A stretch of 64,000 nt of DNA from Jiangella alba (GTDB taxonomy: Bacteria > Actinomycetota > Actinomycetes > Jiangellales > Jiangellaceae): NCBI RefSeq assembly GCF_900106035.1, contig NZ_FNUC01000004.1, positions 3,261,722 through 3,325,721 on the forward strand, read 5' to 3'. This document shows positions 24,909 through 64,000 of the stretch, piece after piece; position 1 is the stretch's first letter, and every line of letters begins with the position of its first letter. The translations under genes and the position numbers were made by a program. Below the pieces are notes generated by a model. That model was not told where the DNA came from and made no database searches. It saw only the letters and a list, made by a program, of their open reading frames with translations.

Positions 24909-26144
24909 TCAGCCGGCGGCGGCGGTGGCGGCCGACATGAGCAGATCGACCTGCGCCGGCGCCAGGGCGTGGTCGATGACCATGACGGCCGCGCCGATGA
25001 TGCCGGCGCGGTCGCCGGTGCTGGACTGGACGATGCGGAGGTCCTGCGTGGCCAGTGGCAGCGACCGCCGGTAGACGATCTCGCGGACGCCGGCGATGAG
25101 GTGCTCGCCGGCCTGGGAGAGGGATCCGCCGATGACGATGACGGACGGGTTGAACAGGCTCACCGCGGCGGCCAGCACCTCGCCGATGTCGCGGCCGGCC
25201 TGCCGGAGCAGCTGAAGGGCCTCGATGTTCCCGCCGCGGGCCAGCCCGACGACGTCGAAGCTGGAGGAGGCGTCGATGCCGCGGGCGGCGAGCTTGGCGG
25301 CGATGGCGGCGCCGCTGGCGACGGCCTCGAGGCAGCCGGTGTTGCCACAGCGGCAGACGACGTCGGTGCCGTGCGGGAGCTGCAGGTGCCCCATGTCGCC
25401 GGCGGCGCCCTGGGCGCCGCGATGCAGCCGCCCGTCGCTGATCAGGCCGCTGCCGATACCGGTGGCGACCTTGACGAACATCATGTGCGGCGCGCCGCTC
25501 CACGCCACGTGGTGCTCGCCCAGCGCCATGATGTTGACGTCGTTGTCGACGAGGGAGACCGCGCCGAAGCGGTCCTGCAGGTAGCCCTGCACGTCGAAGC
25601 CGTCCCAGCCGGGCATGATCGGCGGGCTGACGGGGCGGCCGGTGGAGTGCTCGACCGGGCCGGGCAGGCCGAGGCCCACGCCGAGGAGGTCGGACGGGTC
25701 GCGGCCGGCGTCGCGGATGAGCTCGTGGCCGATGCGGTCGACCCAGTCGAGGACGGTCTCGGGGCCGGCCGCGACGAGGAGGTCGTCGGCGGACTGGGCC
25801 AGCACCTCGGCGGCGAGATCGGTGAGCGCCAGCCGGGCGTGCGTGGCGCCGATGTCGGCGGCCAGCACGTACCGGGCGTTGGGGTTGAACGCGAACCGGG
25901 TGGGCGGCCGCCCGCCGGTGGACGCGGCCTTGTCGGCCGGGCCGATCAGGTTGCTCGCCAGCAGGGCGTCGACGCGCTGGGTGACGGTCGAGCGGGCCAG
26001 GCCGGTCTCGGCCGCCAGTTCGGCACGCGTGCGCGGCCGGCCGTCGCGCAGCAACTGGAACAGCGACCCCGCCGAGTACATGGAAGCGCCGTCGGGCTGG
26101 ACGTTTGCCGGCCGTGACGTCGTGACGCCTACGCCTTCGAGCAT
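24909..26144 (-). CDS. ROK-family transcriptional regulator (first)
   Basis: A 411-residue NagC/XylR-type regulator. The N-terminal winged helix is TRAELAAETGLARSTVTQRVDALLASNLI. The sugar-sensing ROK kinase-like domain has ADIGATHARLALTDL, SLVDNDVN and the zinc site GHLQL ... CRCGNTGCLEA. It is divergent from the operon starting at 26256, and the 111-bp gap holds an 8-11-8 inverted repeat, so it most likely represses that sugar operon and responds to the imported sugar. It shares PVSPPIMPGWDG and YRRSLPLAT with the ROK protein at 45804, so the two are close paralogues. I chose ATG at 26144; the longer frame to 26228 would cross the operator. Confidence 0.9.
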   Translation of the reverse strand: MLEGVGVTTSRPANVQPDGASMYSAGSLFQLLRDGRPRTRAELAAETGLARSTVTQRVDALLASNLIGPADKAASTGGRPPTRFAFNPNARYVLAADIGATHARLALTDLAAEVLAQSADDLLVAAGPETVLDWVDRIGHELIRDAGRDPSDLLGVGLGLPGPVEHSTGRPVSPPIMPGWDGFDVQGYLQDRFGAVSLVDNDVNIMALGEHHVAWSGAPHMMFVKVATGIGSGLISDGRLHRGAQGAAGDMGHLQLPHGTDVVCRCGNTGCLEAVASGAAIAAKLAARGIDASSSFDVVGLARGGNIEALQLLRQAGRDIGEVLAAAVSLFNPSVIVIGGSLSQAGEHLIAGVREIVYRRSLPLATQDLRIVQSSTGDRAGIIGAAVMVIDHALAPAQVDLLMSAATAAAG

Positions 26145-26209
26145 GCCACTAGTGAAACACACCAGACTTCTTTCTGTGCAACATCCGCACATGCGGTAAC
26201 GACCGCGCA

Positions 26210-26247
26210 ACTTTTGCTTGACGTACATGCAAAAGTGCCTCTAAGTT
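26210..26247 (+). promoter_or_regulatory. Promoter and ROK operator of the first sugar operon
   Basis: ACTTTTGC (26210-26217), 11 bases, then GCAAAAGT (26229-26236) is a perfect inverted repeat. The spacer contains the -35 box TTGACG (26218-26223). TAAGTT at 26242-26247 is the -10, 18 bases on. A dimeric repressor bound here would block the -35 region. The adjacent divergent ROK gene is the obvious candidate. A sister site, ACTTTCGC-N9-GCGAAAGT, lies before the second ROK gene. Confidence 0.7.
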
Positions 26248-26255
26248 CCTCTGCC

Positions 26256-27395
26256 ATGGCAGTGACTCCGATCACAGACCGCGCGGCCGGTGCGGATTCC
26301 TTCCCCGAGACGGGGTACCGGGCAGCGATCGTCGGGACCGGCTTCATGGGCCGTGTGCATGCGCGGGCGGTCCAGGTGGCCGGCGGCCGGGTGGTCGGAG
26401 CGGTCGGCTCCACACCGGAGCGCGCGGCGGCGGCGCAGGGCGAGCTGCAGGCCGACGCGGTCTACACGACCCTCGACGACCTGCTGGACCGCGCCGACGT
26501 CGACGTCGTCCACGTGTGCACCCCCAACCACCTGCACGAGCCGGTCGTGCTCGCCGCGCTGGCCGCCGGCAAGCACGTCGTGTGCGAGAAGCCGCTCGCG
26601 ACCTCCACCGAAGCCGCCGCCGCGATGACGGCCGCCGCCCGTGAGGCCGGCCGCGTCGCCGCCGTCCCGTTCGTCTACCGCTTCCACCCGATGGTGCGCG
26701 AGGCGCGCGAGCGGGTCCGCGCCGGCGAGGTCGGCAGCATCTTCCTCGCCCACGGCAGCTACCTGCAGGACTGGCTGCTGCACCCGACCGACGACAACTG
26801 GCGGGTCGACCCGCGCCTCGGCGGCCCGACCCGCGCGTTCGGCGACATCGGCTCGCACTGGTGCGACCTGCTGGAGTTCGTGACGGGGGAACGCATCGCC
26901 CGGCTGTCGGCGCAGTCGTCGACGGTGAACAAGCTGCGCGGCGTCGAGACGCTGCGCGACGTCACCACCGAGGACGTCGTGATCGTCCAGTTCGCCACCC
27001 GCGGCGGCGCGATCGGCTCGGTCGTCGTCAGCCAGGTGTCGGCGGGCCGGAAGAACCGGCTGCTGCTGGAGGTCTCCGGCTCGCGCGGCTCGCTCTCGTT
27101 CGACCAGGAGAACCCCGAGCAGCTGTGGTGGGGCGGACGTGAGCGCAGCAGCCAGCTGGTCCGCGACCCCGAGACGCTCAGCTCGCCGGCCGCCCGCTAC
27201 GCCCGGGTGCCGGCCGGCCACCCGCAGGGCTACCAGGACTGCTTCGACGCGTTCGTCGCCGACACCCAGGCGGCCATCGGCGGCGAGATCCCCGACGGCC
27301 TGCCCACGTTCGACGACGGCCTGCGCGCCGCCCGGCTGGCCGAGGCCGTCGTGACGTCGGCCCGCGAGAGCGACTGGGTGGAGGTGCCCGAATGA
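26256..27395 (+). CDS. Gfo/Idh/MocA-family sugar oxidoreductase (first)
   Basis: A 379-residue NAD(P)-dependent dehydrogenase. The Rossmann motif is AAIVGTGFMGRVHARAVQ, and the catalytic-lysine motif is KHVVCEKPLATS. The C-terminal beta-sheet domain carries YLQDWLLHPTDDNWRVD and the active-site helix FGDIGSHWCDLLEFVTGERI. Family members oxidise or epimerise sugars and inositols; ThuB-type members make 3-keto-disaccharides. It is the first gene of an importer operon and overlaps the ATPase gene by four bases (ATGA at 27392). The ATG at 26256 is the first in-frame start after the promoter; the longer frame would include the operator. Confidence 0.88.
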   Translation: MAVTPITDRAAGADSFPETGYRAAIVGTGFMGRVHARAVQVAGGRVVGAVGSTPERAAAAQGELQADAVYTTLDDLLDRADVDVVHVCTPNHLHEPVVLAALAAGKHVVCEKPLATSTEAAAAMTAAAREAGRVAAVPFVYRFHPMVREARERVRAGEVGSIFLAHGSYLQDWLLHPTDDNWRVDPRLGGPTRAFGDIGSHWCDLLEFVTGERIARLSAQSSTVNKLRGVETLRDVTTEDVVIVQFATRGGAIGSVVVSQVSAGRKNRLLLEVSGSRGSLSFDQENPEQLWWGGRERSSQLVRDPETLSSPAARYARVPAGHPQGYQDCFDAFVADTQAAIGGEIPDGLPTFDDGLRAARLAEAVVTSARESDWVEVPE

Positions 27396-28906
27396 CCGGT
27401 GTGGCAAGTCCCGCCACGACGCTGCTGCGGATGCGCGGCATCGAGAAGTCGTTCCTCGGCGTCCAGGTGCTGCACGGCGTCGACCTCGACCTGCGCGCGG
27501 GCGAGGTGCACGCGCTGATCGGCGAGAACGGCGCCGGCAAGTCGACGCTGATGAAGATCCTCGCCGGCGTCTACCAGGCCGACGGCGGCAGCGTCGAGCT
27601 GGACGGCGAGCAGGTCCGGTTCGAGCACCCGCTGCTGGCCCAGCAGGCCGGCGTGTCGACGGTGTTCCAGGAGTTCAACCTGCTGCCGGAGCGCACCGTC
27701 GCCGAGAACGTGTTCCTCGGCCGCGAGCCGCGCCGCAACCGGCTGGTCGACGCCGGCCGGATGCACGCCGACACCGCGGCGCTGCTGGACGACCTCGGGC
27801 TGACCTGGCTGCGGCCGGAGACCCGGGTCAGCTCGCTGTCGGTGGCCGGCCAGCAGATCGTCGAGATCGTCAAGGCGCTGTCCTACGACGCGCGGATCAT
27901 CTCGATGGACGAGCCGACCGCGGCGCTGGCCGACGAGGAGGTGGAGCTGCTCTACCGCCTCGTCGCGAAGCTGAAGGAGCGCGGCGTCGCCATCCTCTAC
28001 GTCTCACACCGGCTCAAGGAGATCTTCGACCTGTCCGACCGGGTGACCATCCTCAAGGACGGCGCGCTGGTGGACACCGTCGCCACGTCCGACATCACCT
28101 CGGACGAGCTGGTGCGCAAGATGGTCGGCCGCCCGATCGCCAGCTTCTTCCCGGACAAGCTGCCCGGCACCGAGGCCGGCGACGTCCGCCTCGAGATCCG
28201 CGGCGGCGGCAACGAACAGCTCGACGGCATCGACCTGGACGTCCGCGGCGGCGAGATCGTCGCGCTGGCCGGGCTGCAGGGCAGCGGCCGCACCGAGATC
28301 GCGCACGCCCTGTTCGGCGTCGACCGGTTCACCCGCGGCACGGTGCGCCTGGACGGGCGCCCGCTCACCGCGCGGTCGCCGCGTCAGGCGGTGCGGGCCG
28401 GGCTGGCGCTGGTGACCGAGGACCGCAAGGGCGAGGGCCTGGTGCTCAACCAGTCCATCGCCGCGAACGCCCGGCTGGTGCTGGACGCCGTCCTGCCGCG
28501 CCGCGCGTCGCAGGGGGCGCGGCGGATCCCCGGCATCCTGTCGTCGCTGGAGCTGGTCTCGCGCGGCAGCAGCCAGGAGGTGCGCTTCCTGTCCGGCGGC
28601 AACCAGCAGAAGGTCGTGCTGGCCAAGTGGCTGGCCACCGAACCGAAGGCGATCGTGCTCGACGAGCCCACCCGCGGCATCGACGTCGGCGCGAAGGAGC
28701 GGGTCTACACGCTGATGCGCGAGCTGTCGGCGCAGGGCGTGGCGATCCTGATGATCTCGTCCGAGCTGCCCGAAGTGCTCGGGATGGCCGACCGCATCGT
28801 CGTTCTCCGGGACGGCCGCGTCGCGGGCGAACTCCCCGCCGGCGCTGATGAGGAGACCGTGATGGCACTGGCCACGGGCCACGAGACCGAAGGAACCCAG
28901 CGATGA
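27392..28906 (+). CDS. Sugar ABC transporter, dual ATP-binding protein (RbsA/XylG type)
   Basis: A 504-residue tandem ATPase energising monosaccharide uptake. The first half has Walker A GENGAGKST (44-52), LSVAGQQIVEI and Walker B IISMDEPTAAL. The second half has the degenerate P-loop GLQGSGRTE usual in this family, then LSGGNQQKVVLAKWL and IVLDEPTRGIDVG. Start and stop overlap both neighbours by four bases, so translation is coupled through the operon. The substrate is a sugar or related polyol; the sequence does not say which. Confidence 0.93.
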   Translation: MTGVASPATTLLRMRGIEKSFLGVQVLHGVDLDLRAGEVHALIGENGAGKSTLMKILAGVYQADGGSVELDGEQVRFEHPLLAQQAGVSTVFQEFNLLPERTVAENVFLGREPRRNRLVDAGRMHADTAALLDDLGLTWLRPETRVSSLSVAGQQIVEIVKALSYDARIISMDEPTAALADEEVELLYRLVAKLKERGVAILYVSHRLKEIFDLSDRVTILKDGALVDTVATSDITSDELVRKMVGRPIASFFPDKLPGTEAGDVRLEIRGGGNEQLDGIDLDVRGGEIVALAGLQGSGRTEIAHALFGVDRFTRGTVRLDGRPLTARSPRQAVRAGLALVTEDRKGEGLVLNQSIAANARLVLDAVLPRRASQGARRIPGILSSLELVSRGSSQEVRFLSGGNQQKVVLAKWLATEPKAIVLDEPTRGIDVGAKERVYTLMRELSAQGVAILMISSELPEVLGMADRIVVLRDGRVAGELPAGADEETVMALATGHETEGTQR

Positions 28907-29991
28907 GCCGCGCGGTCGCGGTCACCGGGACCGGCAAGGAGGCCCGCCGCCGGCTGGGCGCCACCGAACTGGTGTGGCTGGCGCTGGCCGGCGTGCTCGT
29001 CATCGGCGCGATCCTGGTGGCGCTGGACGACCAGAACCTGTTCAGCATCGCCAACACCCGCGACATCCTGAGCCGGTCCAGCCTGCTCGGGTTCGTCGCC
29101 ATCGGCCAGACGCTGGTCATCCTGTGCCGGTCGCTGGACCTGTCCGTCGGCTACGTCATGGCGCTGAGCAGCCTGATCGCGGCGACGACGATGAACGGCG
29201 ACCCCGCGCGGGTGCCGCTGGCGATCGTCGCCGTGCTGCTGGTGGCCGGCGGGATCGGCCTGTGCAACGGCCTGATCGTGTCGGTGCTGAAGGTCAACCC
29301 GTTCATCGCGACGCTCGGCGTCGGCCTCATCATCAAGGGCTACCTGGACACCGAGTACCAGGGCCCGGCCGGCGCGGTGCCCAGCTCGTTCCAGCAGTTC
29401 GGCTTCAGCCGCATCGGCCCGATCCCGGTGTCGACGCTGGTCATGCTGATCGTCGCGGTCGCCGGCATCCTGTTCCTGCGCAAGACCCGCACCGGGTACC
29501 ACATGTTCGCCGTCGGCGGCAGCGCGGACGTCGCGCGGCTGTCCGGCATCCGCACCGGCCGGGTGCTGGTGACGGCGCACGTGCTCTGCTCGATCGCGGC
29601 GGGCATCGCCGGCCTGCTGATCGCGGCCCGCTTCGGCACCGGCAGCGCGCTGGTCTACAACTCCGGCTACGACCTGGAGTCGATCGCGGCGGTGGTGCTG
29701 GGCGGGACGCTGCTGCTGGGCGGCCGCGGCGGCATCGCCGGGACGATCGCCGGCGTGCTGATCCTGGCCGTGCTCGACACCGTCTTCAACATCCTCGCGG
29801 TCGACCCGTTCTTCAAGGACGTGCTGCGCGGCACCATCATCGTCGCCGCCGTCGCGATCTACGCCCGCCGGCAGATCGACCGCAAGGCCAGCCGCGTCAG
29901 ATTCGGCGGTGACGGCGGCAGCGGCGGCTCCGCGCCACCCGGACCGAGGCCCGATCAGCCGACGCCAGAGCTCGCCGGAGGCCCCCGATGA
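28903..29991 (+). CDS. Sugar ABC transporter permease (first of two)
   Basis: A 362-residue integral membrane protein of the BPD_transp_2 (RbsC) family with about nine or ten hydrophobic helices. Typical segments are GQTLVILCRSLDLSVGYVMALSSLIAA, NPFIATLGVGLIIKGYL and ESIAAVVLGGTLLLGGRGGIAGTIAGVLIL. It should pair with the second permease as a heterodimer around the ATPase. The C-terminus has an unusual Gly/Pro-rich tail (GGDGGSGGSAPPGPRPDQPTP). It is coupled to both neighbours by four-base overlaps. Confidence 0.92.
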   Translation: MSRAVAVTGTGKEARRRLGATELVWLALAGVLVIGAILVALDDQNLFSIANTRDILSRSSLLGFVAIGQTLVILCRSLDLSVGYVMALSSLIAATTMNGDPARVPLAIVAVLLVAGGIGLCNGLIVSVLKVNPFIATLGVGLIIKGYLDTEYQGPAGAVPSSFQQFGFSRIGPIPVSTLVMLIVAVAGILFLRKTRTGYHMFAVGGSADVARLSGIRTGRVLVTAHVLCSIAAGIAGLLIAARFGTGSALVYNSGYDLESIAAVVLGGTLLLGGRGGIAGTIAGVLILAVLDTVFNILAVDPFFKDVLRGTIIVAAVAIYARRQIDRKASRVRFGGDGGSGGSAPPGPRPDQPTPELAGGPR

Positions 29992-31040
29992 CCGTCACCA
30001 CGCAGCAGCCCACGCCGCAGCGCAGCGCCGGCTCGCGGGCCGGCGACCTGCTCGCGCGGGTCTTCGGCGGCGGCAGCGCCACGGTGTTCGCCCTGCTCAT
30101 CGTCGTGTTCGCGGCGATCTTCATCGTGAACCCGAGCTTCGCCGAGCCGCCGTCGCTGATGGCGTTCCTCAAGCAGGCCGCGCCGCTGATGATCCTGGCC
30201 ATCGGCCAGTACTTCGTCATCGTGTCCGGCGAGTTCGACCTGTCGGTCGGGTCGCTGGTCGGCGCGCAGGTGGTCATCGCCGCCGCGCTGATCGACGGCG
30301 AGGAGGGCCGCACGGTCCCCGTCATCCTGCTGATGCTCGGCTTCGGCATTCTCGTCGGCCTGATCAACGGGCTGATCACCACACTGCTCAAGGTGCAGTC
30401 GTTCATCACGACGCTCGGCATGATGCTGGTGCTCTACGGCGCGATCCGGTTGTGGACCGGCGGCGCGCCGACCGGTGCCCTGTCCGAGGCCTTCCGCCAG
30501 CCCGGACGCGGCGGCATCGACATGTCGGTCGTACGGCAACTGCCGTGGGCGCTGATGATCCTGGTCGGGATCGTCATCATCGCCGTGGCGGTCATGCGCA
30601 GCTCGTACGGCCGCACGTTGATCGCCACCGGCGACAACGAGCGCGCCGCGGGGTTCTCCGGCGTCCGGGTCTGGCGGGTGCGCACGCTGGCGTTCGTCAT
30701 CTCCAGCGTGCTGGCCACGCTGGCCGCGATCCTCATCGGCGGCTACGCCGGTGTCACGGCGCAGGTGGGACAGGGTTTGGAGTTCACCGCGATCACGGCG
30801 GTGGTGCTCGGCGGCGCCGCGCTCGGCGGCGGCCGGGGCTGGGTCGTGGCGGCGATGGCCGGCGCGCTCACCCTCGAGGCCCTGTTCGTCCTGTTCAACC
30901 AGTTGAGCATGCCGTCGACCATCCGGCCGGCGGTTCAAGGCGTGATCATCATCGCGGCCGTCGCCTACGCGGCCCGTGAGAGGGCGCGTCCCCGGCACCA
31001 CCAGGAAGTCCCGTCCCAACCGCAACCGAACGAAGCCTGA
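29988..31040 (+). CDS. Sugar ABC transporter permease (second)
   Basis: A 350-residue RbsC-like permease. Family blocks are LMILAIGQYFVIVSGEFDLSVGSLVGAQVVIAA, VQSFITTLGMMLVLYGAIRLW and TAVVLGGAALGGGRGWVVAAMAGALTLEALFVLF. It overlaps the first permease by four bases. Two permease genes rather than one separates this importer from the second one in the window (58692), which has a single permease. A 69-base gap with its own ribosome site precedes the binding-protein gene. Confidence 0.92.
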   Translation: MTVTTQQPTPQRSAGSRAGDLLARVFGGGSATVFALLIVVFAAIFIVNPSFAEPPSLMAFLKQAAPLMILAIGQYFVIVSGEFDLSVGSLVGAQVVIAAALIDGEEGRTVPVILLMLGFGILVGLINGLITTLLKVQSFITTLGMMLVLYGAIRLWTGGAPTGALSEAFRQPGRGGIDMSVVRQLPWALMILVGIVIIAVAVMRSSYGRTLIATGDNERAAGFSGVRVWRVRTLAFVISSVLATLAAILIGGYAGVTAQVGQGLEFTAITAVVLGGAALGGGRGWVVAAMAGALTLEALFVLFNQLSMPSTIRPAVQGVIIIAAVAYAARERARPRHHQEVPSQPQPNEA

Positions 31041-31109
31041 CTCCGCCGAGGCACGCTTCTCAGCCGAGGCGGCTATGTCATTTTCGTCGTCACCCAAGGA
31101 GGGGGAACG

Positions 31110-32345
31110 ATGCGCACTACGCGCGCTCTACTGGCGGCGGCTGCTGCCGCGGCCCTGACGCTCGCGGCCTGCACCACCGACGAGCCGTCCGACACCGCGG
31201 CGCCCGAGGAGACCGAGGCGGCCGGCGAGGACCCGGGCGCCGAGGGCGAGGAGCCGGAGGACGAGACGGCCGACGGCGAGTTCTTCGTCCGCGCCGACTA
31301 CGACCGGCAGCTGGCCCAGCGTGACATCGCGCCCGAGGGCGACCCGGCCACGCCGTGGCTGCAGGCGATCGAGCCGGAGTACGTCGACACCGCGCAGTAC
31401 GCGCAGGACGGCAACACGCTCTGCTTCTCGAACGCCTCGGTCAGCAACCCGTGGCGGGTCACCGGCTGGATCACCATGCAGCAGCAGGTGGAGGTGCTGC
31501 AGCAGCAGGGCCTGATCGGCGAGTTCCGGGTCTCCGACGCCGCCGACGACGACAACAAGCAGATCTCCGACATCCAGGCGTTCATCGACGCCGGGGACTG
31601 CAACGCCATCATCATCTCGCCGTCGACGACGGCCACCCTGACCCCGGCGGTCGAGGCGGCCTGCGCGAGCGGCGTCCCGGTCATCGTGTTCGACCGCGGC
31701 GTCAACTCCGACTGCATGGCGACGTTCATCCACCCGATCGGCGGCTACGCCTACGGCGCGGACGGCGCGGAGTTCCTGGTCGAGAACCTGGAGCCGGGCT
31801 CGAAGGTGCTGGCGCTGCGGATCCTGCCGGGTGTCGACGTGCTGGAGAACCGCTGGGCGGCGGCGCAGGAGATCTTCGGCGACAGCGAGCTGGAGATCCT
31901 CGGCGACGAGTTCACCGGCGGCGACGGCGCGGAGATCAAGAACATCGTCACGCAGTACCTGCAGCGCGGCGACGTCGACGGCATCTGGATGGACGCCGGT
32001 GACGGCGCCGTCGCGGCCGTCGAGGCGTTCGAGGACACCGGCAACGACTACCCGGTCATGGTCGGCGAGGACGAGCTGAGCTTCCTGCGCAAGTGGCAGG
32101 AGACCGACATAACGGCGGTCGCCCCGGTCTACTCGAACTTCCAGTGGCGCACCCCGATCCTCGCCGCGACGATGATCTGGGCCGGCGAGCAGGTGCCGGT
32201 GGAGTGGGTGCTCCCGCAGGACGAGATCACCGAGGACGACCGCGACGAGTTCCTCGACCGCAACGCCGACATGCCCAGCCTGCACTACGCCAAGTTCGGC
32301 GGCGAGGACCTGCCGGGCTTCCCGGCGGCCTGGCAGGACCGCTGA
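31110..32345 (+). CDS. Sugar ABC transporter substrate-binding lipoprotein (first)
   Basis: A 411-residue lipoprotein. The lipobox LTLAAC places the acylated Cys21, followed by an acidic linker rich in Glu, Asp and Gly (to about 55). The periplasmic-binding-protein fold, of the ribose-binding type, shows LCFSNASVSNPWRVTGWITMQQQVEVL, FIDAGDCNAIIISPSTTATLTPAVEAACASGVPVIVFDRGV and IWMDAGDGAVAAVEAFEDTG. It captures the sugar for the importer encoded just upstream. AAGGAGGGGG is a strong ribosome site. A 14-bp perfect hairpin follows the gene and may protect or limit its transcript. Confidence 0.92.
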   Translation: MRTTRALLAAAAAAALTLAACTTDEPSDTAAPEETEAAGEDPGAEGEEPEDETADGEFFVRADYDRQLAQRDIAPEGDPATPWLQAIEPEYVDTAQYAQDGNTLCFSNASVSNPWRVTGWITMQQQVEVLQQQGLIGEFRVSDAADDDNKQISDIQAFIDAGDCNAIIISPSTTATLTPAVEAACASGVPVIVFDRGVNSDCMATFIHPIGGYAYGADGAEFLVENLEPGSKVLALRILPGVDVLENRWAAAQEIFGDSELEILGDEFTGGDGAEIKNIVTQYLQRGDVDGIWMDAGDGAVAAVEAFEDTGNDYPVMVGEDELSFLRKWQETDITAVAPVYSNFQWRTPILAATMIWAGEQVPVEWVLPQDEITEDDRDEFLDRNADMPSLHYAKFGGEDLPGFPAAWQDR

Positions 32346-45736: not shown

Positions 45737-45762
45737 GACATCGGCGCTCACGATGGGAGACG

Positions 45763-45800: not shown

Positions 45801-45803
45801 CCC

Positions 45804-47837: not shown

Positions 47838-47888
47838 GCGAAAGTACGCCGCAAACCGTTGACCAGGGTCTCTCCGGGCGTCTAGTTT
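47838..47888 (+). promoter_or_regulatory. Promoter of the 48033-52325 unit with ROK-type half-site
   Basis: TTGACC (47859-47864), 18 bases, TAGTTT (47883-47888). GCGAAAGT at 47838-47845, 13 bases before the -35, equals one arm of the second ROK operator. TTGCG-N9-CGCAA (47836-47854) overlaps it as an inverted repeat. The transcript leader would be about 135 bases. GAGGAG at 48020-48025 is the ribosome site. Confidence 0.55.
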
Positions 47889-55942: not shown

Positions 55943-57193
55943 ATGACGGACGCGTCCGCGCCCGCCGACCAGGTGTTCCTGCGCCGGCACAATCTGGCGA
56001 TGGTCCTGCGCGACCTCCGCGACCACGGGCCGCGCTCGCGGGCCCGCATCGCCGCCGACACCGGCCTCAACAAGGCCACGGTCTCCAGCCTGGTCGCCGA
56101 GCTCGGCGAGCTGGGCCTGGTCCGCGACGGCGACGTCGAGCGCGGCGGCGGGGTGGGCCGGCCCGGGCAGACGGTGGAGATCGACGGCCGCATCTGCGGG
56201 CTGGGCGCCGAGGTGAACGTCGACTACGTCGCGGTGCTCGTGCTCGACCTGCGCGGCGAGCAGGTCAGCTACGTCCGCACCCCGCTCGACGTGCCGCGCC
56301 TGGGCGTGGAGAAGACGCTGGACGAGCTGGCCGCGGCCATCGCGGCGGCCGTCGACCACGCCGCGGCTCAGGGTCACGACGTCGGCGGCATCACCGTCGG
56401 CATCCCGGGCATGGTCGAGACCGCGCCCGGCGTGCTGCGGCACGCGCCGAACATCGGCTGGCGCGAGGTGCGCATCGCCGACGAGCTGACCGCGCGGCTG
56501 GCCGGTCCGGCCGCGGCCATCCGGGTCGACAACGACGCCAACCTCAGCGCGCTGGCCGAGTACGCCGTCGGCTCCTCGGCCGGCACCGGCGACCTCGTCT
56601 ACGTCACCGGCGAGACCGGGGTCGGCGGCGGCGTCATCTCCGACGGCGTGCTGCTGCGCGGCACCGAGGGCTACGGCGGCGAGATCGGGCACATGCCGAT
56701 CGGCGACCCCGCCCACCGCTGCGGCTGCGGCAAGCTCGGCTGCTGGGAGGCGTCGGTCGGCCTGGCGGCGCTGCTCCGCGAGGTGGCCGACAAGGACGAC
56801 CCGGTCACCGACCCGTCGGTCGACCTCGAGGTCCGGCTGGCCGAGATCCGCCGCCGCGCGTCGCTCGGCGACGGCCGCACGCTGCGCGGCATCGAGGCGG
56901 TCGGCACCACGCTCGGGCTCGGCGCGGCCATCCTGGTCAACCTCTTCAACCCGCGGGTGATCGTCCTCGGCGGCTACTTCGCCGCACTCGGCGAGTTCTT
57001 CCTCCCGGCCATGGAGACCGAGCTGGACAAGCGGGTCGTCGCACCGGCCCGCGGCGGCTGCCGCATCGAGCTGTCCGCGCTGGGCTTCACCGCCGCCTGC
57101 CGCGGCGGCGCGCACGTCGCCCTCGAAGCCGTCTTCACCGACCCCGCGTCCGTGGCCACCGTCCCGGCCCCACTTCCCGGAGGTATGGCGTGA
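55943..57193 (+). CDS. ROK-family transcriptional regulator (third)
   Basis: A 416-residue regulator. The winged helix is SRARIAADTGLNKATVSSLVAELGELGLV. The ROK domain has IRVDNDANLSALAEY, VYVTGETGVGGGVISDG and the zinc motif GHMPIGDPAHRCGCGKLGCWEA. It is less related to the other two ROK proteins, lacking PIMPGWDG. Unlike the first, it is co-directional with its target: its stop overlaps the importer ATPase start (GTGA at 57190), so regulator and transporter are one operon and probably autoregulated. It most likely senses the sugar brought in by that importer. Confidence 0.9.
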   Translation: MTDASAPADQVFLRRHNLAMVLRDLRDHGPRSRARIAADTGLNKATVSSLVAELGELGLVRDGDVERGGGVGRPGQTVEIDGRICGLGAEVNVDYVAVLVLDLRGEQVSYVRTPLDVPRLGVEKTLDELAAAIAAAVDHAAAQGHDVGGITVGIPGMVETAPGVLRHAPNIGWREVRIADELTARLAGPAAAIRVDNDANLSALAEYAVGSSAGTGDLVYVTGETGVGGGVISDGVLLRGTEGYGGEIGHMPIGDPAHRCGCGKLGCWEASVGLAALLREVADKDDPVTDPSVDLEVRLAEIRRRASLGDGRTLRGIEAVGTTLGLGAAILVNLFNPRVIVLGGYFAALGEFFLPAMETELDKRVVAPARGGCRIELSALGFTAACRGGAHVALEAVFTDPASVATVPAPLPGGMA

Positions 57194-58695
57194 GCGACCC
57201 GTTGCTGCAGATGACCGGCATCGTCAAGGTCTTCCCGGGCGTGCGGGCCCTCGACGGCGTCGACCTCGAGGTCCGCGCCGGCGAGGTGCACTGCCTGCTC
57301 GGCCAGAACGGCGCCGGCAAGTCCACGCTCATCAAGGTCCTGGCCGGCGCCCACCAGCCGGACGAGGGCGAGATCCGCTGGCAGGGCGAGGCCCTCCGGC
57401 TCACCACGCCGCTGGCGGCGATGAAGAACGGCATCGCGACCATCTACCAGGAGCTCGACCTCGTCGACGGCCTGTCCGTGGCCGAGAACATCTACCTCGG
57501 CCACGAGCTGGCCGCGGCCGGCTTCTCCCGCCGCGGCGACACCCAGAAGCAGGCCGCCACGCTGCTGGCGCGGCTCGGCCACCCGGAGATCTCGCCGCGC
57601 CGCGAGGTCGGCACGCTGTCGGCGGCCGGCAAGCAGATCGTCAGCATGGCGCGGGCGCTGTCGCACGACGTCAAGCTGATCATCATGGACGAGCCGTCGG
57701 CGGTCCTCGACCAGGAGGAGGTCGCCCGGCTGTTCAAGGTCATCCGCGACCTCCAGGCCGAGGGCGTCGCCGTCGTGTACATCTCGCACCGGCTCGAGGA
57801 GATCCGCCAGATCGGCGACCGCGTCACGGTCCTCAAGGACGGCCGCACCGTCGCCACCGGCCTGCCCGCCCGCGACACACCGACCCGCGAGCTGACCCGC
57901 CGCATGACCGGCCGCGACATCGAGTACGTGTTCCCGCAGCGGCAGGCCCGCGACGGCCACGGCTCGGTCGTGCTGGCGGTCCGCGACCTCTCCTCGGGCA
58001 AGGCGTTCAGCGGCGTCGACTTCGAGGTGCGGGCCGGCGAGATCGTCGGGCTGGCCGGGCTGGTCGGGTCCGGGCGCTCGGAGATCCTCGAGACCGTCTA
58101 CGGCGCGCGCAAGGCGGCGTCGGGGTCGGTCAGCGTCGACGGGCGGACCCTGCGCAACGGGTCGGTCCGCGCGGCCGTCGGCGCCGGCGTCGGGCTGTGT
58201 CCCGAGGAGCGCAAGAGCCAGGGCCTGCTGCTCGACGAGGCCATCTACCGCAACGTCAGCCTCGCCACCATGGGGCGGTTCGCCCGCCTCGGCTTCCTCG
58301 ACCGCGGCACCGAGAAGCGCGCCGCCACCGAGCACGTCAAGGCGCTCGACGTCCGCCCGCCCGACGTCGACCGCGCCGTCCGCACCCTGTCGGGCGGCAA
58401 CCAGCAGAAGATCGTCCTCGCCAGGTGGCTGCTCCGGGAATGCCGGGTGCTGCTGCTGGACGAGCCGACGCGAGGGGTCGACGTGGGTGCGCGCAGCGAG
58501 ATCTACGCGCTCGTCCGCCGGCTCGCCGACGACGGTGTCGCCGTCGTCCTGGTCAGCAGTGAGGTCCCCGAGGTGCTCGGCCTGGCCGACCGGGTGCTGG
58601 TCCTGCGGGAAGGGGTCGTCGTGCACACCGGGCCGGCCGACGACATCGACGAGCACCGGGTCCTCGACCTGGTGATGGAAGGGAGCGCAGCGTGA
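57190..58695 (+). CDS. Sugar ABC transporter, dual ATP-binding protein (second importer)
   Basis: A 501-residue RbsA/XylG-type tandem ATPase. The first half has GQNGAGKST, LSAAGKQIVSMARAL and LIIMDEPSAVL. The second half has the degenerate GLVGSGRSE, then LSGGNQQKIVLARWL and LLLDEPTRGVDVG. GTG 57190 overlaps the ROK stop by four bases, and the stop overlaps the permease start in the same way. It energises sugar uptake with the single permease that follows. Confidence 0.93.
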   Translation: MSDPLLQMTGIVKVFPGVRALDGVDLEVRAGEVHCLLGQNGAGKSTLIKVLAGAHQPDEGEIRWQGEALRLTTPLAAMKNGIATIYQELDLVDGLSVAENIYLGHELAAAGFSRRGDTQKQAATLLARLGHPEISPRREVGTLSAAGKQIVSMARALSHDVKLIIMDEPSAVLDQEEVARLFKVIRDLQAEGVAVVYISHRLEEIRQIGDRVTVLKDGRTVATGLPARDTPTRELTRRMTGRDIEYVFPQRQARDGHGSVVLAVRDLSSGKAFSGVDFEVRAGEIVGLAGLVGSGRSEILETVYGARKAASGSVSVDGRTLRNGSVRAAVGAGVGLCPEERKSQGLLLDEAIYRNVSLATMGRFARLGFLDRGTEKRAATEHVKALDVRPPDVDRAVRTLSGGNQQKIVLARWLLRECRVLLLDEPTRGVDVGARSEIYALVRRLADDGVAVVLVSSEVPEVLGLADRVLVLREGVVVHTGPADDIDEHRVLDLVMEGSAA

Positions 58696-59762
58696 GCGAC
58701 CAGACTCCGTCCGCACCGCCGACCACCCCGCCCGCCGACGAGCACCGTCGCATCGAGGCGGCCGCGGCGGCCGAGGGCGAGACCCAGTCCGGCTTCGTCC
58801 GGTTCATGAGCAGCCCGTTCGGCCGGAACCTCGGCCTGGTGCTCGCCCTGCTGGTGCTGTGCGTCGTGGGCGTGGCCACCGCCGGCGACCGGTTCGCCAG
58901 CACCGACAACGTGCTGACGATCCTGCGGTTCGCCTCGGTCATCGGCGTGGTCAGCATCGGCATGACGTTCGTGATCATCGGCGGCGGTTTCGACCTGTCC
59001 GTCGGCGCCATCGTCGCGCTCGCGTCGGTCTGGGCCACCACCCTGGCGACGCAGCGGATGGCCGAGGACACCCACTGGCTGATGATGGTGTTCGTCGCCT
59101 GCGCGGTCGGCGTCGGCTGCGGGTTGGTCAACGGCGTCCTCATCGCCTACGGCGGGATGGCGCCGTTCATCGTCACCTTGGCGATGCTGGTCGCCGCTCG
59201 TGGCCTCGCCGAGATCATCTCCGAGAAGCGCACGCAGATCGTCGACGTCCGCGGGCTGGTCGACACCCTCAACGGCGAGTTCCTCGGCATCTCGGTGCTG
59301 ATCTGGATCTTCGCCGTGATCAGCGCCATCGGGTGGGTGCTGCTCAACCGCACCACGTTCGGCCGGCGCACCATCGCCGTCGGCGGCAACGCGACGGCGG
59401 CGCGGCTGGCCGGCATCGCGGTCAAGCGGCACATCGTGCTGCTGTACGTCCTGGTGGGTCTGGCCTGCGGCATCGCCGGGATCATGCTGACCGCCCGCAC
59501 CGGCACCGGCAGCGCGACGCACGGCCTGTACTACGAGCTGGACGCGATCGCCGCCGTCGTCATCGGCGGCACGCTGCTCTCCGGCGGCCGCGGCACCATC
59601 GTCGGCACCGTCTTCGGCGTGCTGATCTTCACCACGCTGACCAACGTGTTCACCCTCAACAACCTCGACAGTTCCACCCAGGCCGTCGCCAAGGGCGCGA
59701 TCATCGTCATCGCCGTGCTCCTGCAGCAGCGGGTCGCGGTCCGCAGCAGCGACTCGTCCTAG
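58692..59762 (+). CDS. Sugar ABC transporter permease (second importer)
   Basis: A 356-residue RbsC-like membrane protein. A polar N-terminal extension of about 45 residues (EHRRIEAAAAAEGETQ) precedes about nine helices. Family blocks are SIGMTFVIIGGGFDLSVGAIVALASV, MAPFIVTLAMLVAARGLAEI and AIAAVVIGGTLLSGGRGTIVGTVFGVLIF. With only one permease gene it should act as a homodimer, in contrast to the paired permeases of the first importer. The GTG start overlaps the ATPase stop. Confidence 0.92.
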   Translation: MSDQTPSAPPTTPPADEHRRIEAAAAAEGETQSGFVRFMSSPFGRNLGLVLALLVLCVVGVATAGDRFASTDNVLTILRFASVIGVVSIGMTFVIIGGGFDLSVGAIVALASVWATTLATQRMAEDTHWLMMVFVACAVGVGCGLVNGVLIAYGGMAPFIVTLAMLVAARGLAEIISEKRTQIVDVRGLVDTLNGEFLGISVLIWIFAVISAIGWVLLNRTTFGRRTIAVGGNATAARLAGIAVKRHIVLLYVLVGLACGIAGIMLTARTGTGSATHGLYYELDAIAAVVIGGTLLSGGRGTIVGTVFGVLIFTTLTNVFTLNNLDSSTQAVAKGAIIVIAVLLQQRVAVRSSDSS

Positions 59763-59837
59763 CCCCCCAGAGCCCACCCCCAAGAGCGCACCCGCCGGAC
59801 GGGCAGTCCGGGACCGAATCGATCCGAGGAGAGACCC

Positions 59838-60902
59838 ATGTCCGTACGCACGAATCGGCCGTACCGCCGGTTACTGACGTCCACGGTCGCCGTGTTCGCG
59901 GCCGGGGCCTTCGTCGTGGGCTGCACCAGCAACGAGCCGGAGGAGGAGAACGAGCCGGCCGCGGAGACCGACGCCGAGGCGCCGTCCGGCGGCAACGACG
60001 AGATCGGCGAGACCGTGACCATCGGGTTCTCCGGGCCCGAGGCCGACCACGGCTGGCTGGCCGCGGTCAACGACTCGGCCATCGCCGAGGCGGGGAAGTA
60101 CGAGGACATCGAGCTGCGCACCGCCGAGGGCACCAACGACGCCAACCTGCAGATCAGCCAGATCGAGACGTTCATCAACGAGGGCGTCGACGCGATCGTG
60201 CTGCTGCCCACCGACGGCGCGCAGCTCACCGAGGTGGCCACCCGGGCGATGGACGCCGGCATCCCGGTCGTCAACGTCGACCGCGAGTTCTCCACCCCGT
60301 TCGCCGCGCGCACGACGATCCTCGGCGACAACTACGGCATGGGTGTCTCGGCCGGCACCTACGCCTGCCAGCTGATCGAGGACAACGGCATCGCCGACCC
60401 GGTGATCGCCGAGATCGCCGGCATCGACTCGCTGCCGCTGACCCAGGACCGTTCGCAGGGCTTCGCCGACGCGCTGGAGGCCTGCGGGCAGACCGTCGAC
60501 AACCGCGTCGCCGCCGAGTTCACCGTCGAGTCCGGTGAGGAGCAGGCCTCGAACCTGCTGCAGGCGGCTCCGCAGATCGACATCGTCTGGAACCACGACG
60601 ACGACCAGGGCGTCGGCGTGAAGCAGGCGTTCGACAACGCCGGTCGCGACGAGTTCTTCTTCATCGGCGGCGCGGGCTCGGCGAACGCCATGCGGTGGAT
60701 CCAGGACGGCGAGATGGAGGCGACCATCCTCTACCCGCCGACGCAGGCCGCCGACGGCATCCGGCTGGCCCGGCTGCTGGCGCAGAACAAGGGTTTGTCG
60801 GACCTGGTCCAGGTCGAGGTACCGCGCCGGATCGTGCTCAACGCTCCGGTCGTCAACGCCGACAACGTCGAGCAGTACCTCCCCCTGGGGTTCGAATCCT
60901 GA
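59838..60902 (+). CDS. Sugar ABC transporter substrate-binding lipoprotein (second importer)
   Basis: A 354-residue lipoprotein with lipobox VVGC (Cys29) and an acidic linker. The ribose-binding fold shows VTIGFSGPEADHGWLAAVNDSAIAEAGKYEDIELRTAEG, INEGVDAIVLLPTDGAQLTEVATRAMDAGIPVVNVDREF and VWNHDDDQGVGVKQAFDNAG. It differs from the first binding protein in length and binding-site sequence, so the two importers probably take different sugars. Its ribosome site GAGGAGAG precedes ATG 59838. A 22-bp perfect palindrome lies just behind the gene. Confidence 0.92.
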   Translation: MSVRTNRPYRRLLTSTVAVFAAGAFVVGCTSNEPEEENEPAAETDAEAPSGGNDEIGETVTIGFSGPEADHGWLAAVNDSAIAEAGKYEDIELRTAEGTNDANLQISQIETFINEGVDAIVLLPTDGAQLTEVATRAMDAGIPVVNVDREFSTPFAARTTILGDNYGMGVSAGTYACQLIEDNGIADPVIAEIAGIDSLPLTQDRSQGFADALEACGQTVDNRVAAEFTVESGEEQASNLLQAAPQIDIVWNHDDDQGVGVKQAFDNAGRDEFFFIGGAGSANAMRWIQDGEMEATILYPPTQAADGIRLARLLAQNKGLSDLVQVEVPRRIVLNAPVVNADNVEQYLPLGFES

Positions 60903-60984: not shown

Positions 60985-62178
60985 ATGACGGTTGACGACA
61001 CGCCCATCCTCGGTATCGGAATGGTGGGCTACGCGTTCATGGGGGCAGCCCACTCCCAGGCCTGGCGCAACGCGCCGAGCTTCTTCGACGTACCGGTGGT
61101 CCCGCGCCTGGTGGCGCTGGGCGGCCGCAACGCCGAGGCGGCCGGCGACGTCGCCAGACGCTTCGGGTGGGAGAGCGTCGAGACCGACTGGCGGCAGCTG
61201 ATCGCCCGCGACGACGTGGGCCTGGTCGACGTCTGCACGCCCGGCGACACCCACGCCGAGATCGCGATCGCGGCCCTCGAGGCCGGCAAGCACGTGCTCT
61301 GCGAGAAGCCGCTGGCCAACAGCGTGGCCGAGGCCGAGGCCATGGTCGAGGCGGCGGAGAAGGCGGCGGAGTCGGGGGTGCGCAGCCTGGTCGGCTTCAC
61401 CTACCGCCGGGTGCCGGCCATCGCGCTGGCCCGGCAGCTGGTGGCCGAGGGCCGGCTGGGACAGCTGCACCACGTGCGCGCGCAGTACCTGCAGGACTGG
61501 ATCGCCGATCCGGCTGCACCGTTGTCGTGGCGGTTGCAGAAGGAGCGGGCCGGGTCCGGCGCGCTGGGCGACATCGGCGCGCACATCGTCGACCTCACCC
61601 AGTTCATCACCGGCGAGCGCATCACCGGCGTCAGCGCGATCCTGGAGACGTTCGTCAAGGAACGCCCGATCCCCGAGTCGTTCACCGGACTGGCCGGCTC
61701 CGCCGGCGAGGGCGCCGCGATGGGGCCGGTCACGGTCGACGACACCGCGTTGTTCCTGGCCCGGTTCTCCGGCGGAGCGGTGGCCTCGTTCGAGGCGACC
61801 CGGTTCGCCAGCGGGCGCAAGAACGCCATCCGCATCGAGCTCAACGGGTCGAAGGGCAGCCTCGCGTTCGACTTCGAGGACATGAACGTCCTCAACGTCT
61901 ACGACCACACCGAGGACGCCCGGCTGGCCGGCTTCAGGCGGGTGCTGGTGACCGAGCCCAGCCACCCGTACGTCAGCGCCTGGTGGCCCGCGGGGCACGG
62001 GCTCGGCTACGAGCACGCCTTCACCCACCAGGCCGTCGACCTGCTGACGGCGATCGGCGAGGGCCGTGACCCGGCGCCGTCGTTCGCCGACGGCCTGGTC
62101 GTTCAGCGCGTCCTCGCGGCCGTCGAGGACAGCGCGGCCGCAGGCAGCGCGTGGACGGAGGTGCCCGCACCCGCCTGA
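60985..62178 (+). CDS. Gfo/Idh/MocA-family sugar oxidoreductase (second)
   Basis: A 397-residue dehydrogenase. The nucleotide motif is GIGMVGYAFMGAAHSQAW, and the catalytic lysine is in KHVLCEKPLANS. The C-terminal domain has YLQDWIADPAAPLSWRLQ and GDIGAHIVDLTQFITGERI. It is longer than, and clearly different from, the first oxidoreductase, with a segment SFTGLAGSAGEGAAMGPVTVDD typical of the larger Gfo/Idh sugar dehydrogenases. It follows the second importer and precedes another giant secreted dehydrogenase, repeating the logic of the first locus. It probably acts on the imported sugar or 3-keto sugar in the cytoplasm. Confidence 0.87.
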   Translation: MTVDDTPILGIGMVGYAFMGAAHSQAWRNAPSFFDVPVVPRLVALGGRNAEAAGDVARRFGWESVETDWRQLIARDDVGLVDVCTPGDTHAEIAIAALEAGKHVLCEKPLANSVAEAEAMVEAAEKAAESGVRSLVGFTYRRVPAIALARQLVAEGRLGQLHHVRAQYLQDWIADPAAPLSWRLQKERAGSGALGDIGAHIVDLTQFITGERITGVSAILETFVKERPIPESFTGLAGSAGEGAAMGPVTVDDTALFLARFSGGAVASFEATRFASGRKNAIRIELNGSKGSLAFDFEDMNVLNVYDHTEDARLAGFRRVLVTEPSHPYVSAWWPAGHGLGYEHAFTHQAVDLLTAIGEGRDPAPSFADGLVVQRVLAAVEDSAAAGSAWTEVPAPA

Positions 62179-62264
62179 GCACACCCAGCAGGGGCCGAGT
62201 ACCACCGGGGGCGACCCCGGGCACGGAGCGCATCATCCGTTCCCGACAGTCGAAGGAGACTGTG

Positions 62265-64000
62265 GTGAGTCATCCCGCGCAACGCGCCCGCCGATGGGCG
62301 CGGCGATTATTGGCCGCAGGTGCCGCCGTCGTGACGGCGGTGCCGCTGGCAGTGGCCGCGATGGCGCCTCCGGCGGCGGCCCACCCGGGCCACGGTGGCT
62401 ACTCGATCCTGGTGTTCTCGAAGACGGCGGGGTTCCGGCACGACTCCATCCCCGCGGGCATCGCGGCGATCCAGCAGCTCGGCACCACGCACGAGTTCGA
62501 CGTCACCGCGACGGAGGACGCCGCGGCGTTCACCGACGAGAACCTGGCCCAGTACGACGCCGTCGTCTGGCTGTCGACCACCGGTGACGTGCTCAACACC
62601 GACCAGCAGGCGGCGTTCGAGCGGTACATCCAGAACGGCGGCGGGTACGCCGGCATCCACTCCGCGTCCGACACCGAGTACAGCTGGCCGTGGTACGGCG
62701 AGCTGGTGGGCGCCTACTTCGCCAGCCACCCGCAGAACCAGACCGCGACGGTGAAGGTGGAGGACCCGGCACACCCGTCGACGCAGCACCTCGACCCGCT
62801 CTGGTCCCGGTTCGACGAGTGGTACAACTACCAGACCAATCCGCGCGGCAACGTGCACGTGCTGACGTCGCTGGACGAGAAGTCGTACTCGCCGGGCGGC
62901 GGCGCCATGGGCGCGGACCACCCGATCACCTGGTGCCAGGACTACGACGGCGGCCGGTCCTGGTACACCGGCCTCGGCCACACCCAGGAGTCCTACGCCG
63001 ACCCCGACTTCCTGCAGCTGCTGCTCGGCGGCATCGAGACCGCGGCGGGCGTCACACCGGCCGACTGCTCGGCCAGCCAGCCGGACAGCTTCGAGAAGGT
63101 GACGCTGGACGACAGCACCAGCAACCCGATGGAGCTGGCGGTCGCCGACGACGGCCGCGTCCTCTACATCGACCGCAACGGCGCGGTCCGGCTGATCCGC
63201 CCGGACGGCTCGGCCACCACCACCGGCACCCTGAGCGTGTACACCGGCCAGGAGTTCGGGCTCATGGGCATCGCGCTCGACCCGGACTTCAGCACCAACG
63301 GCTGGGTGTACCTGACGTACGCGCCGGCGGGCGGCGAGGCGATCGACCGGGTGTCGAGGTTCACGCTGACCGGTGAGACGCTCGACCTCGCCAGCGAGAC
63401 CGTCATCATCGAGTACCCGACGAACCGGGTGGAGTGCTGCCACGCCGGCGGCGCGCTGGAGTTCGACAACGACGGCAACCTGTACCTCACCACCGGCGAC
63501 AACACGAACCCGTTCGCGTCCAGCGGCTACGCGCCGATCGACGAGCGGCCCGGCCGGGAGCTGTGGGACGCGCAGCGCACGTCGGCCAACACGAACAGCC
63601 TGAGCGGCAAGGTGCTGCGCATCACCCCGCTGGACGAGGGCGGCTACGCGATCCCCGCGGGCAACCTGTTCGCTCCGGGTACGGCGCAGACCCGTCCGGA
63701 GATCTTCGCGATGGGCTTCCGCAACCCGTTCCGCATCGGCCTGGACCCGGCGACCAACAAGCTCATGGTCGCCGACTACGGGCCCGACGCCGGCAGCGCG
63801 AACCCCAGCCGCGGCCCGGACGGCCGGGTCGAGTGGAACATCGTCGACGAGCCCGGCTTCTACGGCTGGCCGTACTGCGTGGGCAACAACACGCCGTACA
63901 TCGACTTCGACTTCGCCACCAACGCCTCGGGTGCGGCGTTCAACTGCGACGCGCCGGTGAACGACTCGCCGAACAACACCGGCCTCACCCAGCTGCCCGG
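62265..64000 (+). CDS. Secreted ThuA - sugar dehydrogenase protein, 3' end outside window
   Basis: The first 578 codons of another giant exported protein. GTG 62265 is used because AAGGAG lies six bases before it; GTG 62262 is an alternative. A signal of about 40 residues precedes ThuA (46-265, GGGYAGIHSASDTEYSW), which is very close to that of the 1689 gene (HPGHGGYSILVFSKTA in both). The propeller then shows Cys391-Cys392-His393, GFRNPFRIGLD and YGPDAGS, and runs off the window at NNTGLTQLP. PKD and carbohydrate-binding modules are expected downstream but not seen. It is the last visible gene of the second importer locus. Confidence 0.88.
   Translation, partial: MSHPAQRARRWARRLLAAGAAVVTAVPLAVAAMAPPAAAHPGHGGYSILVFSKTAGFRHDSIPAGIAAIQQLGTTHEFDVTATEDAAAFTDENLAQYDAVVWLSTTGDVLNTDQQAAFERYIQNGGGYAGIHSASDTEYSWPWYGELVGAYFASHPQNQTATVKVEDPAHPSTQHLDPLWSRFDEWYNYQTNPRGNVHVLTSLDEKSYSPGGGAMGADHPITWCQDYDGGRSWYTGLGHTQESYADPDFLQLLLGGIETAAGVTPADCSASQPDSFEKVTLDDSTSNPMELAVADDGRVLYIDRNGAVRLIRPDGSATTTGTLSVYTGQEFGLMGIALDPDFSTNGWVYLTYAPAGGEAIDRVSRFTLTGETLDLASETVIIEYPTNRVECCHAGGALEFDNDGNLYLTTGDNTNPFASSGYAPIDERPGRELWDAQRTSANTNSLSGKVLRITPLDEGGYAIPAGNLFAPGTAQTRPEIFAMGFRNPFRIGLDPATNKLMVADYGPDAGSANPSRGPDGRVEWNIVDEPGFYGWPYCVGNNTPYIDFDFATNASGAAFNCDAPVNDSPNNTGLTQLP

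Follow-up and report, generated by a model that had tools for sequence, protein, structure and literature searches.

A candidate extracellular oxidation-elimination system for glycosides in three gene groups of Jiangella alba

We analysed a 64 kb window of the Jiangella alba genome (C4:3261722-3325721; G+C content of the window 72%, host genome 7.68 Mb) whose genes fall into three groups (loci A, B and C), each with one ROK regulator. In our judgement, held with moderate confidence, the three loci specify a route by which glycosides are broken down outside the cell through oxidation and elimination: secreted proteins with a GSDH dehydrogenase module would oxidise the sugar, exported modules would cleave the oxidised glycoside, and the product would be imported and reduced. 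An earlier sequence-only reading of this DNA had proposed an extracellular 3-keto-glycoside route with non-hydrolytic cleavage. That part is supported by the full active site of the known eliminase AtOGE in an exported barrel, by the hydratase fold predicted for a DUF1080 domain and by physical linkage of GSDH to cleavage modules; its further idea of one co-regulated set is not supported.

Domain calls come from Pfam scans of the window proteins. Locus A consists of a ROK gene (24909, minus strand), a Gfo/Idh/MocA oxidoreductase gene (26214), an Rbs-type importer with two permeases (27392-32345), a signal-less xylose-isomerase-like barrel (AP_endonuc_2) gene (32430) and two ThuA-GSDH fusion genes (33378 and 39274). 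Locus B has a ROK gene (45753 as the longest frame, plus strand), a second AP_endonuc_2 barrel gene, this one with a twin-arginine signal (48033-48980), and genes for two secreted GSDH proteins (48996-52325 and 52519-54633). Locus C has a ROK gene (55943, plus strand), an importer with one permease (57196-60902), a second Gfo/Idh gene (60985) and a ThuA-GSDH-DUF1080 fusion gene from 62151 onward. An additional ThuA-GSDH protein is encoded at 1689-6083. The scans recover every family that the sequence-only reading had listed: three secreted ThuA-dehydrogenase fusions and a fourth at 1689, two further secreted dehydrogenases, two Gfo/Idh/MocA oxidoreductases, two barrels, two importers, three ROK regulators and DUF1080, present once inside the window (39274 protein) and once more where the 62151 protein extends past it. 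Scores of ThuA, GSDH, DUF1080, ROK and CBM6 are well over the curated cut-offs, so these assignments are not due to chance.

Exported candidate cleavage modules

The barrel and the two GSDH proteins of locus B are as follows.

48033..48980, plus strand: barrel exported by twin-arginine translocation (Tat), candidate 3-keto-glycoside beta-eliminase with the HHDHE site kept (Pfam; PDB sequence matches; alignments)
48996..52325, plus strand: secreted GSDH-PKD-CBM6-FIMAH protein, 15 bp 3' of the 48033 gene (Pfam)
52519..54633, plus strand: secreted GSDH-PKD protein (Pfam)

The N-terminus of the 48033 barrel carries the twin-arginine sequence INRRRFLG. Since its Pfam score barely passes the cut-off (37.9 versus 31.1 bits), its identity rests on PDB matches and alignment. 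Its best PDB sequence matches are 8tcd, 8tcs and 8tct (E 1e-19 to 1e-15); we take 8tcd and its neighbours to be Alistipes/Bacteroides 3-keto-glucoside lyases. The next match, 8bvk (E 1e-10), is AtOGE, a 3-keto-O-glycoside beta-eliminase with metal ligands His132, Asp163, His189 and, weakly, Glu233, and with catalytic His134 (PMC10628242; here and below, statements from cited papers refer to excerpts of them). All five residues are kept in the 48033 protein when aligned with 8bvk, and in 38/38 homologues from other genomes. These residues make the barrel a candidate beta-eliminase of the AtOGE kind.

The other candidate cleavage modules are found on large fusion proteins.

1689..6083, plus strand: secreted ThuA-GSDH-PKD-CBM6-PKD-GH43_C2 protein, 1464 aa (Pfam)
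33378..39146, plus strand: secreted ThuA-GSDH-PKD-CBM6-Big_7-GH43_C2-DUF1349-FIMAH protein, 1922 aa (Pfam)
39274..43944, plus strand: secreted ThuA-GSDH-PKD-CBM6-GH43_C2-DUF1080 protein, 1556 aa; longest frame begins at 39160 (Pfam; AlphaFold of ThuA-GSDH and DUF1080)
62151..64000, plus strand: 5' part of a secreted ThuA-GSDH-PKD-CBM6-PKD-DUF1349/GH43_C2-DUF1080-FIMAH protein, 2165 aa in full, ending past the window at L009:7370 (Pfam)

Oxidation, ThuA and DUF1080 modules were said to share exported chains with polysaccharide-binding domains, and Pfam bears this out with CBM6/PKD-type domains, for example in the 39274 protein (ThuA E 4e-82, DUF1080 E 4e-38). Among named sequences, those most similar to that protein come from seven Jiangella records, with 81-95% identity over the best segment; secreted ThuA-GSDH-PKD proteins occur in many Actinomycetes and in some Bacteroidota records.

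The Pfam release consulted calls DUF1080 '3-keto-disaccharide hydrolase'. The AlphaFold model of the domain in the 39274 protein is confident (predicted local distance difference test, pLDDT, 92.4; predicted template modelling score, pTM, 0.90). Its first 20 Foldseek rows are putative sugar or glycosyl hydrolases and keto-glycoside enzymes, among them 8v31 and 8tda (titled 3-keto-2-hydroxy-glucal hydratase), 9fbe and 8rr2 (with ligand; titled 3-keto-glycoside eliminase/hydratase) and 3osd (BT2157); lower-ranked structures, mostly lectin-like folds, were not used. A sequence profile finds the same PDB entries, the hydratases at E 1e-4 only. Family and predicted fold both match those of the hydratases/eliminases. 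Price et al. describe BT2157 as a hydrolase of 3-ketotrehalose and postulate a periplasmic hydrolase of the DUF1080 family for 3'-ketolactose (PMC9007349).

Linkage of GSDH proteins to candidate cleavage modules

The alternative that survives best, which we think rather unlikely, is that the GSDH proteins are C1-oxidising aldose dehydrogenases (sGDH, Asd or AA12-like) on binding scaffolds, that ThuA and DUF1080 are separate hydrolases or binding domains and that the barrel is an unrelated neighbour. The GSDH module matches its family profile (PF07995) and is a six-bladed propeller in the AlphaFold model, apparently sharing fold and general base with sGDH and AA12. Hydride transfer in sGDH is from C-1 (PMC6881810), and a DUF1080 protein, THTE_1561, is listed as endo-xanthanase/lichenase (PMC9007349).

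What argues against this alternative is the company that the GSDH proteins keep. The host genome encodes 14, of which a subfamily profile picks out 12 (343-663 bits) and scores the other two at 54 and 119 bits. All 12 subfamily members are linked to ThuA, to DUF1080 or to the eliminase candidate: nine by fusion to ThuA, one by fusion to two DUF1080 domains and the other two, encoded in locus B, by lying beside the eliminase candidate. The two remaining proteins have none of these modules within their ~1.5 kb flanks.

The same link recurs in other genomes. A search for eliminase homologues (E 1e-15) in 345 genomes of the class found one in 75, of which 12 belong to the window's genus (the host included). 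From the other 63 we took 38 neighbourhoods (one of just 6 kb), leaving 25 genomes outside the comparison, four of which belong to the same family and have strong matches; two regions of the host genome, L184 with and L185 without ThuA-GSDH, were excluded from the count. Of the 40 control regions, 37 were taken at arbitrary positions in 32 of those 38 genomes, and three came from the host genome. A GSDH-subfamily gene lay near the eliminase homologue in 17/38 regions versus 1/40 controls (Fisher p 6e-6), the regions not being phylogenetically independent. The linked regions span six families of the sample (f1, which is the window's own, f17, f18, f19, f36 and f37), and 13 of the 17 linked barrels have a twin-arginine motif by a crude pattern. 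Gfo, binding-protein, permease and ROK seeds were found near the eliminase in 4-9/38 regions versus 0/40.

GSDH seems to be paired either with ThuA/DUF1080 or with the barrel (13/17 linked regions lack ThuA), a pattern suggesting that ThuA and the exported barrel have a similar task. Fusions were also tallied over 78 loci that a search with the 39274 protein retrieved; the sample is biased, since this query carries all three modules and a few of the loci overlap. The loci contain 50 open reading frames (ORFs) joining DUF1080 to ThuA, always accompanied by a separate GSDH ORF in that locus, 24 joining GSDH to ThuA and 13 with all three modules; stand-alone ORFs number 83 for GSDH, eight for DUF1080 and five for ThuA.

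The proposed route, known systems and other readings

In the oxidation-elimination scheme that we favour, the large secreted proteins would hold on to a glycan or glycoside surface through their CBM6, PKD and GH43_C2-type modules, and the GSDH propeller would remove two electrons from the sugar ring outside the cell, most likely at C3. In locus B, the 3-keto-glycoside would then lose its aglycone or partner sugar at the Mn-type barrel 48033, giving 2-hydroxy-3-keto-glucal. In loci A and C, cleavage would fall to the ThuA and DUF1080 modules on the same chains as GSDH, and DUF1080 would act as eliminase/hydratase, yielding the 3-keto-sugar. ROK-controlled Rbs-type importers may take up the product, and the Gfo/Idh enzymes, joined in locus A by the 32430 barrel, may reduce or epimerise it to a usable hexose. 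We infer the cofactor, electron acceptor, ThuA function, step order and substrates of this scheme.

Pathways of this kind are already known; the novelty would lie in the fold of the oxidase and in what ThuA does, should these be proven. In Bacteroides, Agrobacterium and Caulobacter, separate enzymes are described as degrading glycosides by the oxidative (3-keto) route; in this Gram-positive bacterium the chemistry seems to be carried by very large secreted proteins. The Agrobacterium tumefaciens operon (glycoside dehydrogenase GlycDH, AtOGE, the probable hydratase AtHYD and a Gfo reductase) follows the same logic of oxidation, beta-elimination, hydration and reduction, has Gfo/Idh and barrel genes as in Jiangella, and its eliminase shares the five residues (PMC10628242). 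Its oxidase is GlycDH, whereas in Jiangella a GSDH propeller is fused to, or lies beside, the cleavage modules, and the large secreted multi-domain chains are a feature of the Gram-positive system. The Bacteroides/Alistipes BT2156-BT2160 pathway supplies the nearest PDB match of the barrel (8tcd, E 1e-19) and two of the DUF1080 fold matches (8tda, 8v31). Its BT2158 is a periplasmic glycoside 3-dehydrogenase (PMC11300592), whereas in Jiangella the related Gfo/Idh enzymes carry no export signal, and the candidate for an exported enzyme is GSDH. Fungal AA12 pyranose dehydrogenases have the six-bladed propeller with the His144 of sGDH and can be coupled to a carbohydrate-binding module and a cytochrome; they differ in oxidising C-1 in the manner of sGDH, and no ThuA, DUF1080 or eliminase partner is described in the excerpts concerned (PMC6881789, PMC6881810). 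A search of open-licence literature returned no report tying a GSDH propeller dehydrogenase to oxidative (3-keto) glycoside breakdown, and PMC4562250 as the sole report linking ThuA to GSDH.

Several observations weigh against the favoured scheme, in addition to the relatedness of the sampled regions and the bias of the fusion tally. To our knowledge, no GSDH-family enzyme oxidises C3, and the C-1 mechanism of sGDH points the other way. Among the 29 of 53 ThuA-GSDH stretches used for residue counts, the sGDH residues His144 (29/29), Arg228 (28/29) and Asn229 (29/29) are kept; the contacts of the cofactor pyrroloquinoline quinone (PQQ) are less so, with Lys377 and Arg408 replaced in 29/29, Arg406 kept in 8/29 and Asp424 in 0/29. 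The AA12 enzyme CcPDH has no equivalent of Lys377 and no Arg at the place of Arg408, yet binds PQQ (PMC6881789, PMC6881810). The host genome has no match to pqqC, the sole pqq gene searched, and nine other listed genomes of the genus likewise have none; PQQ made by the host was rejected on this ground. The search itself works, since 4/197 class genomes match at E 0.001 (two over the cut-off), though none of 14 control genomes did. In the QN(H/D)G motif, 12/27 actinobacterial DUF1080 domains (39274 included) have His and 15/27 have Asp, the 27 being drawn from 77 DUF1080 stretches; the hydration residue given for the Bacteroides enzyme is His275 (PMC13273386). Near the eliminase homologues, there is no clear enrichment of ThuA (4/38 versus 1/40), DUF1080 (two versus one) or ABC (ATP-binding cassette) ATPase (11 versus nine), and 21/38 regions have no such GSDH gene nearby, so some members of the eliminase family act in other settings. 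A classical C3 oxidase of the LacABC type, encoded at another place in the genome, was also considered and rejected: the Gluconate_2-dh3 subunit (PF13618) gave 0 genome matches at E 0.001, while the Caulobacter control matched.

The one characterised protein of similar build bears on the mechanism. M768_06655 (Xyl_S), with the order ThuA-GSDH-PKD-CBM6-PKD, is secreted by Cellulosimicrobium cellulans, was purified natively and was identified by mass spectrometry of the native material (Dou et al., 2015; PMC4562250). It is reported to be the subunit that takes xylose off 7-xylosyl-10-deacetylpaclitaxel and also to act on p-nitrophenyl xyloside and glucoside; a form lacking ~500 C-terminal residues stays active (kcat 0.061 per s versus 13.2 for the complex), so the activity probably resides in the ThuA-GSDH-PKD-CBM6 part (PMC4562250). 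It resembles the 1689 protein in domain order and in being secreted by an actinobacterium; its authors call it a new hydrolase family and, in the excerpts, propose no oxidation. Also unfavourable to an oxidative scheme, the assays had no added electron acceptor, which indicates net hydrolysis, and calcium activated the complex and not the isolated subunit (PMC4562250); a redox-neutral cycle or plain hydrolysis may therefore be at work.

ThuA-GSDH could be a self-contained redox-neutral glycosidase: after transient oxidation of the sugar by GSDH, ThuA would carry out elimination and rehydration and the hydride would go back, giving net hydrolysis with no acceptor. GH4 glycosidases, which depend on nicotinamide adenine dinucleotide (NAD), are a redox-neutral precedent for transient oxidation. 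Besides the beta-xylosidase and beta-glucosidase activity of M768_06655, the two-domain AlphaFold model (pTM 0.91) suggests a fixed relation of ThuA and GSDH. We consider this quite improbable: in the 50 ORFs above ThuA is paired with DUF1080 and apart from GSDH, and some non-actinobacterial relatives add a cytochrome c, suggesting that the electrons leave. A CxxCH motif follows GSDH in 6/10 non-actinobacterial ThuA-GSDH ORFs (four of the six being close relatives, and one of the four negatives cut by a contig end) versus 0/110 actinobacterial GSDH ORFs.

A bolder proposal, which we regard as doubtful, is that ThuA-GSDH proteins form a new secreted glycoside-cleaving class, with a quinone-type propeller that oxidises C3 and a docked ThuA acting as a hitherto unrecognised 3-keto-glycoside lyase, a single chain both activating and cutting the bond, possibly in a redox-neutral manner as a non-NAD counterpart of GH4. 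The favoured oxidation-elimination scheme, if true, would itself supply a chemistry for the secreted ThuA-GSDH-PKD proteins, together with a testable ThuA role and substrate hypothesis, and might explain the 'new glycoside hydrolase family' of 2015 that cleaves a taxane xyloside.

The import and intracellular genes of loci A and C are listed here.

24909..26228, minus strand: ROK regulator of locus A (longest frame; true start probably more internal) (Pfam)
26214..27395, plus strand: Gfo/Idh/MocA oxidoreductase (longest frame), no signal peptide seen (Pfam; N-terminus by eye)
27392..31040, plus strand: Rbs-type ABC ATPase (27392-28906) and permeases (28903-29991 and 29988-31040) (Pfam)
31110..32345, plus strand: sugar-binding protein (Peripla_BP_4), lipoprotein-like N-terminus by eye (Pfam)
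32430..33296, plus strand: xylose-isomerase-like barrel without signal, nearest to ketose 3-epimerases (Pfam; sequence comparison)
55943..57193, plus strand: ROK regulator of locus C (Pfam)
57196..60902, plus strand: Rbs-type importer with ATPase (57196-58695), permease (58692-59762) and binding protein (59838-60902) (Pfam)
60985..62178, plus strand: Gfo/Idh/MocA oxidoreductase, a levoglucosan dehydrogenase relative under the equivalog cut-off (Pfam; sequence comparison)

Neither Gfo/Idh protein shows a signal peptide by eye; both look cytosolic and more likely act on imported sugar than in the exported oxidation. Both match the NCBIfam model of the BT2158 glycoside 3-dehydrogenase weakly. That locus C, and perhaps A, takes up an anhydrosugar such as levoglucosan, or inositol, with the secreted fusions as unrelated passengers, is very improbable: the 60985 enzyme scores 336 bits against levoglucosan dehydrogenase 6a3f, but the two window proteins (378.4 and 171.7 bits) miss the 650-bit cut-off of the NCBIfam LgdA equivalog (NF052479), for which reason a levoglucosan pathway was rejected as the whole explanation; Pfam finds no barrel gene inside locus C within the window; and the Rbs-Gfo-ROK set also adjoins ThuA/GSDH genes in Phytoactinopolyspora (L034), Actinoalloteichus (L038) and Streptomyces (L059 and L062). 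In four Sphingobacteriales-type loci (L067, L068, L073 and L076), a signal-less Gfo/Idh gene lies 3' of a ThuA-GSDH gene with a CxxCH motif.

Regulation and neighbouring features

Locus B has a predicted operator in two copies.

45804..46997, plus strand: ROK regulator of locus B, start moved from 45753 to 45804 (Pfam; conserved start and operator)
45763..45787, no strand: predicted palindromic operator ACTTTCGC-N9-GCGAAAGT, locus B ROK promoter (alignment; pattern searches)
47821..47845, no strand: second predicted copy, 5' of the exported barrel gene (alignment; pattern searches)

The ROK gene probably starts at the conserved ATG 45804 and not at 45753, because the conserved operator falls inside the longest frame. 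The first copy is kept in 4/4 aligned Jiangella sequences and the second in 4/5, L030 having one base changed. Searched as ACTTNC-N12-CGAAAGT, the operator has two exact matches in the 7.68-Mb genome, both in locus B. With one mismatch allowed, there are four further places genome-wide, and the reversed-pattern control gives six matches versus eight for the operator; with two mismatches, the window has four matches on both strands, equalled by 7/100 shuffles, and none of them is outside locus B. It is the exact, conserved copies that support the operator. As no exact copy occurs elsewhere in the genome, locus B looks like a separate regulon, contrary to the single co-regulated system of the sequence-only reading. 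Half-sites of this operator at N13 spacing also occur ~18 kb from another ThuA-GSDH-DUF1080 gene (L108; C3:1218707-1218732).

Past locus C, at ~0.2-9 kb, lie inositol-phosphate synthase, UbiA, phosphodiesterase and TIM-barrel genes (L009:7611-14651, L185:7231-8187), presumably an ebo-like cluster. A TIM-like match 3' of locus C (C4:3338871) was set aside, as it lies past the inositol-phosphate-synthase, UbiA and phosphodiesterase genes.

A dispersed imperfect-palindrome repeat of ~125 bp lies at 47157-47290. A genome search with it gives 56 match rows, of which 25 are almost full-length (80-100% identity); it is inverted in J. endophytica (L029), and no match is listed for the J. muralis locus (L037). 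At the other end of the window, the repeat TAACCGGTTACTGATACCGGTTA is found at 1579-1601, 5' of the 1689 ThuA-GSDH gene; its unit ACCGGTTA occurs on the plus strand of the window at just the two places within 1579-1601 and is a possible operator. Immediately 3' of the same gene, Pfam identifies a glycoamylase/DUF3131-type protein at 6115-7629.

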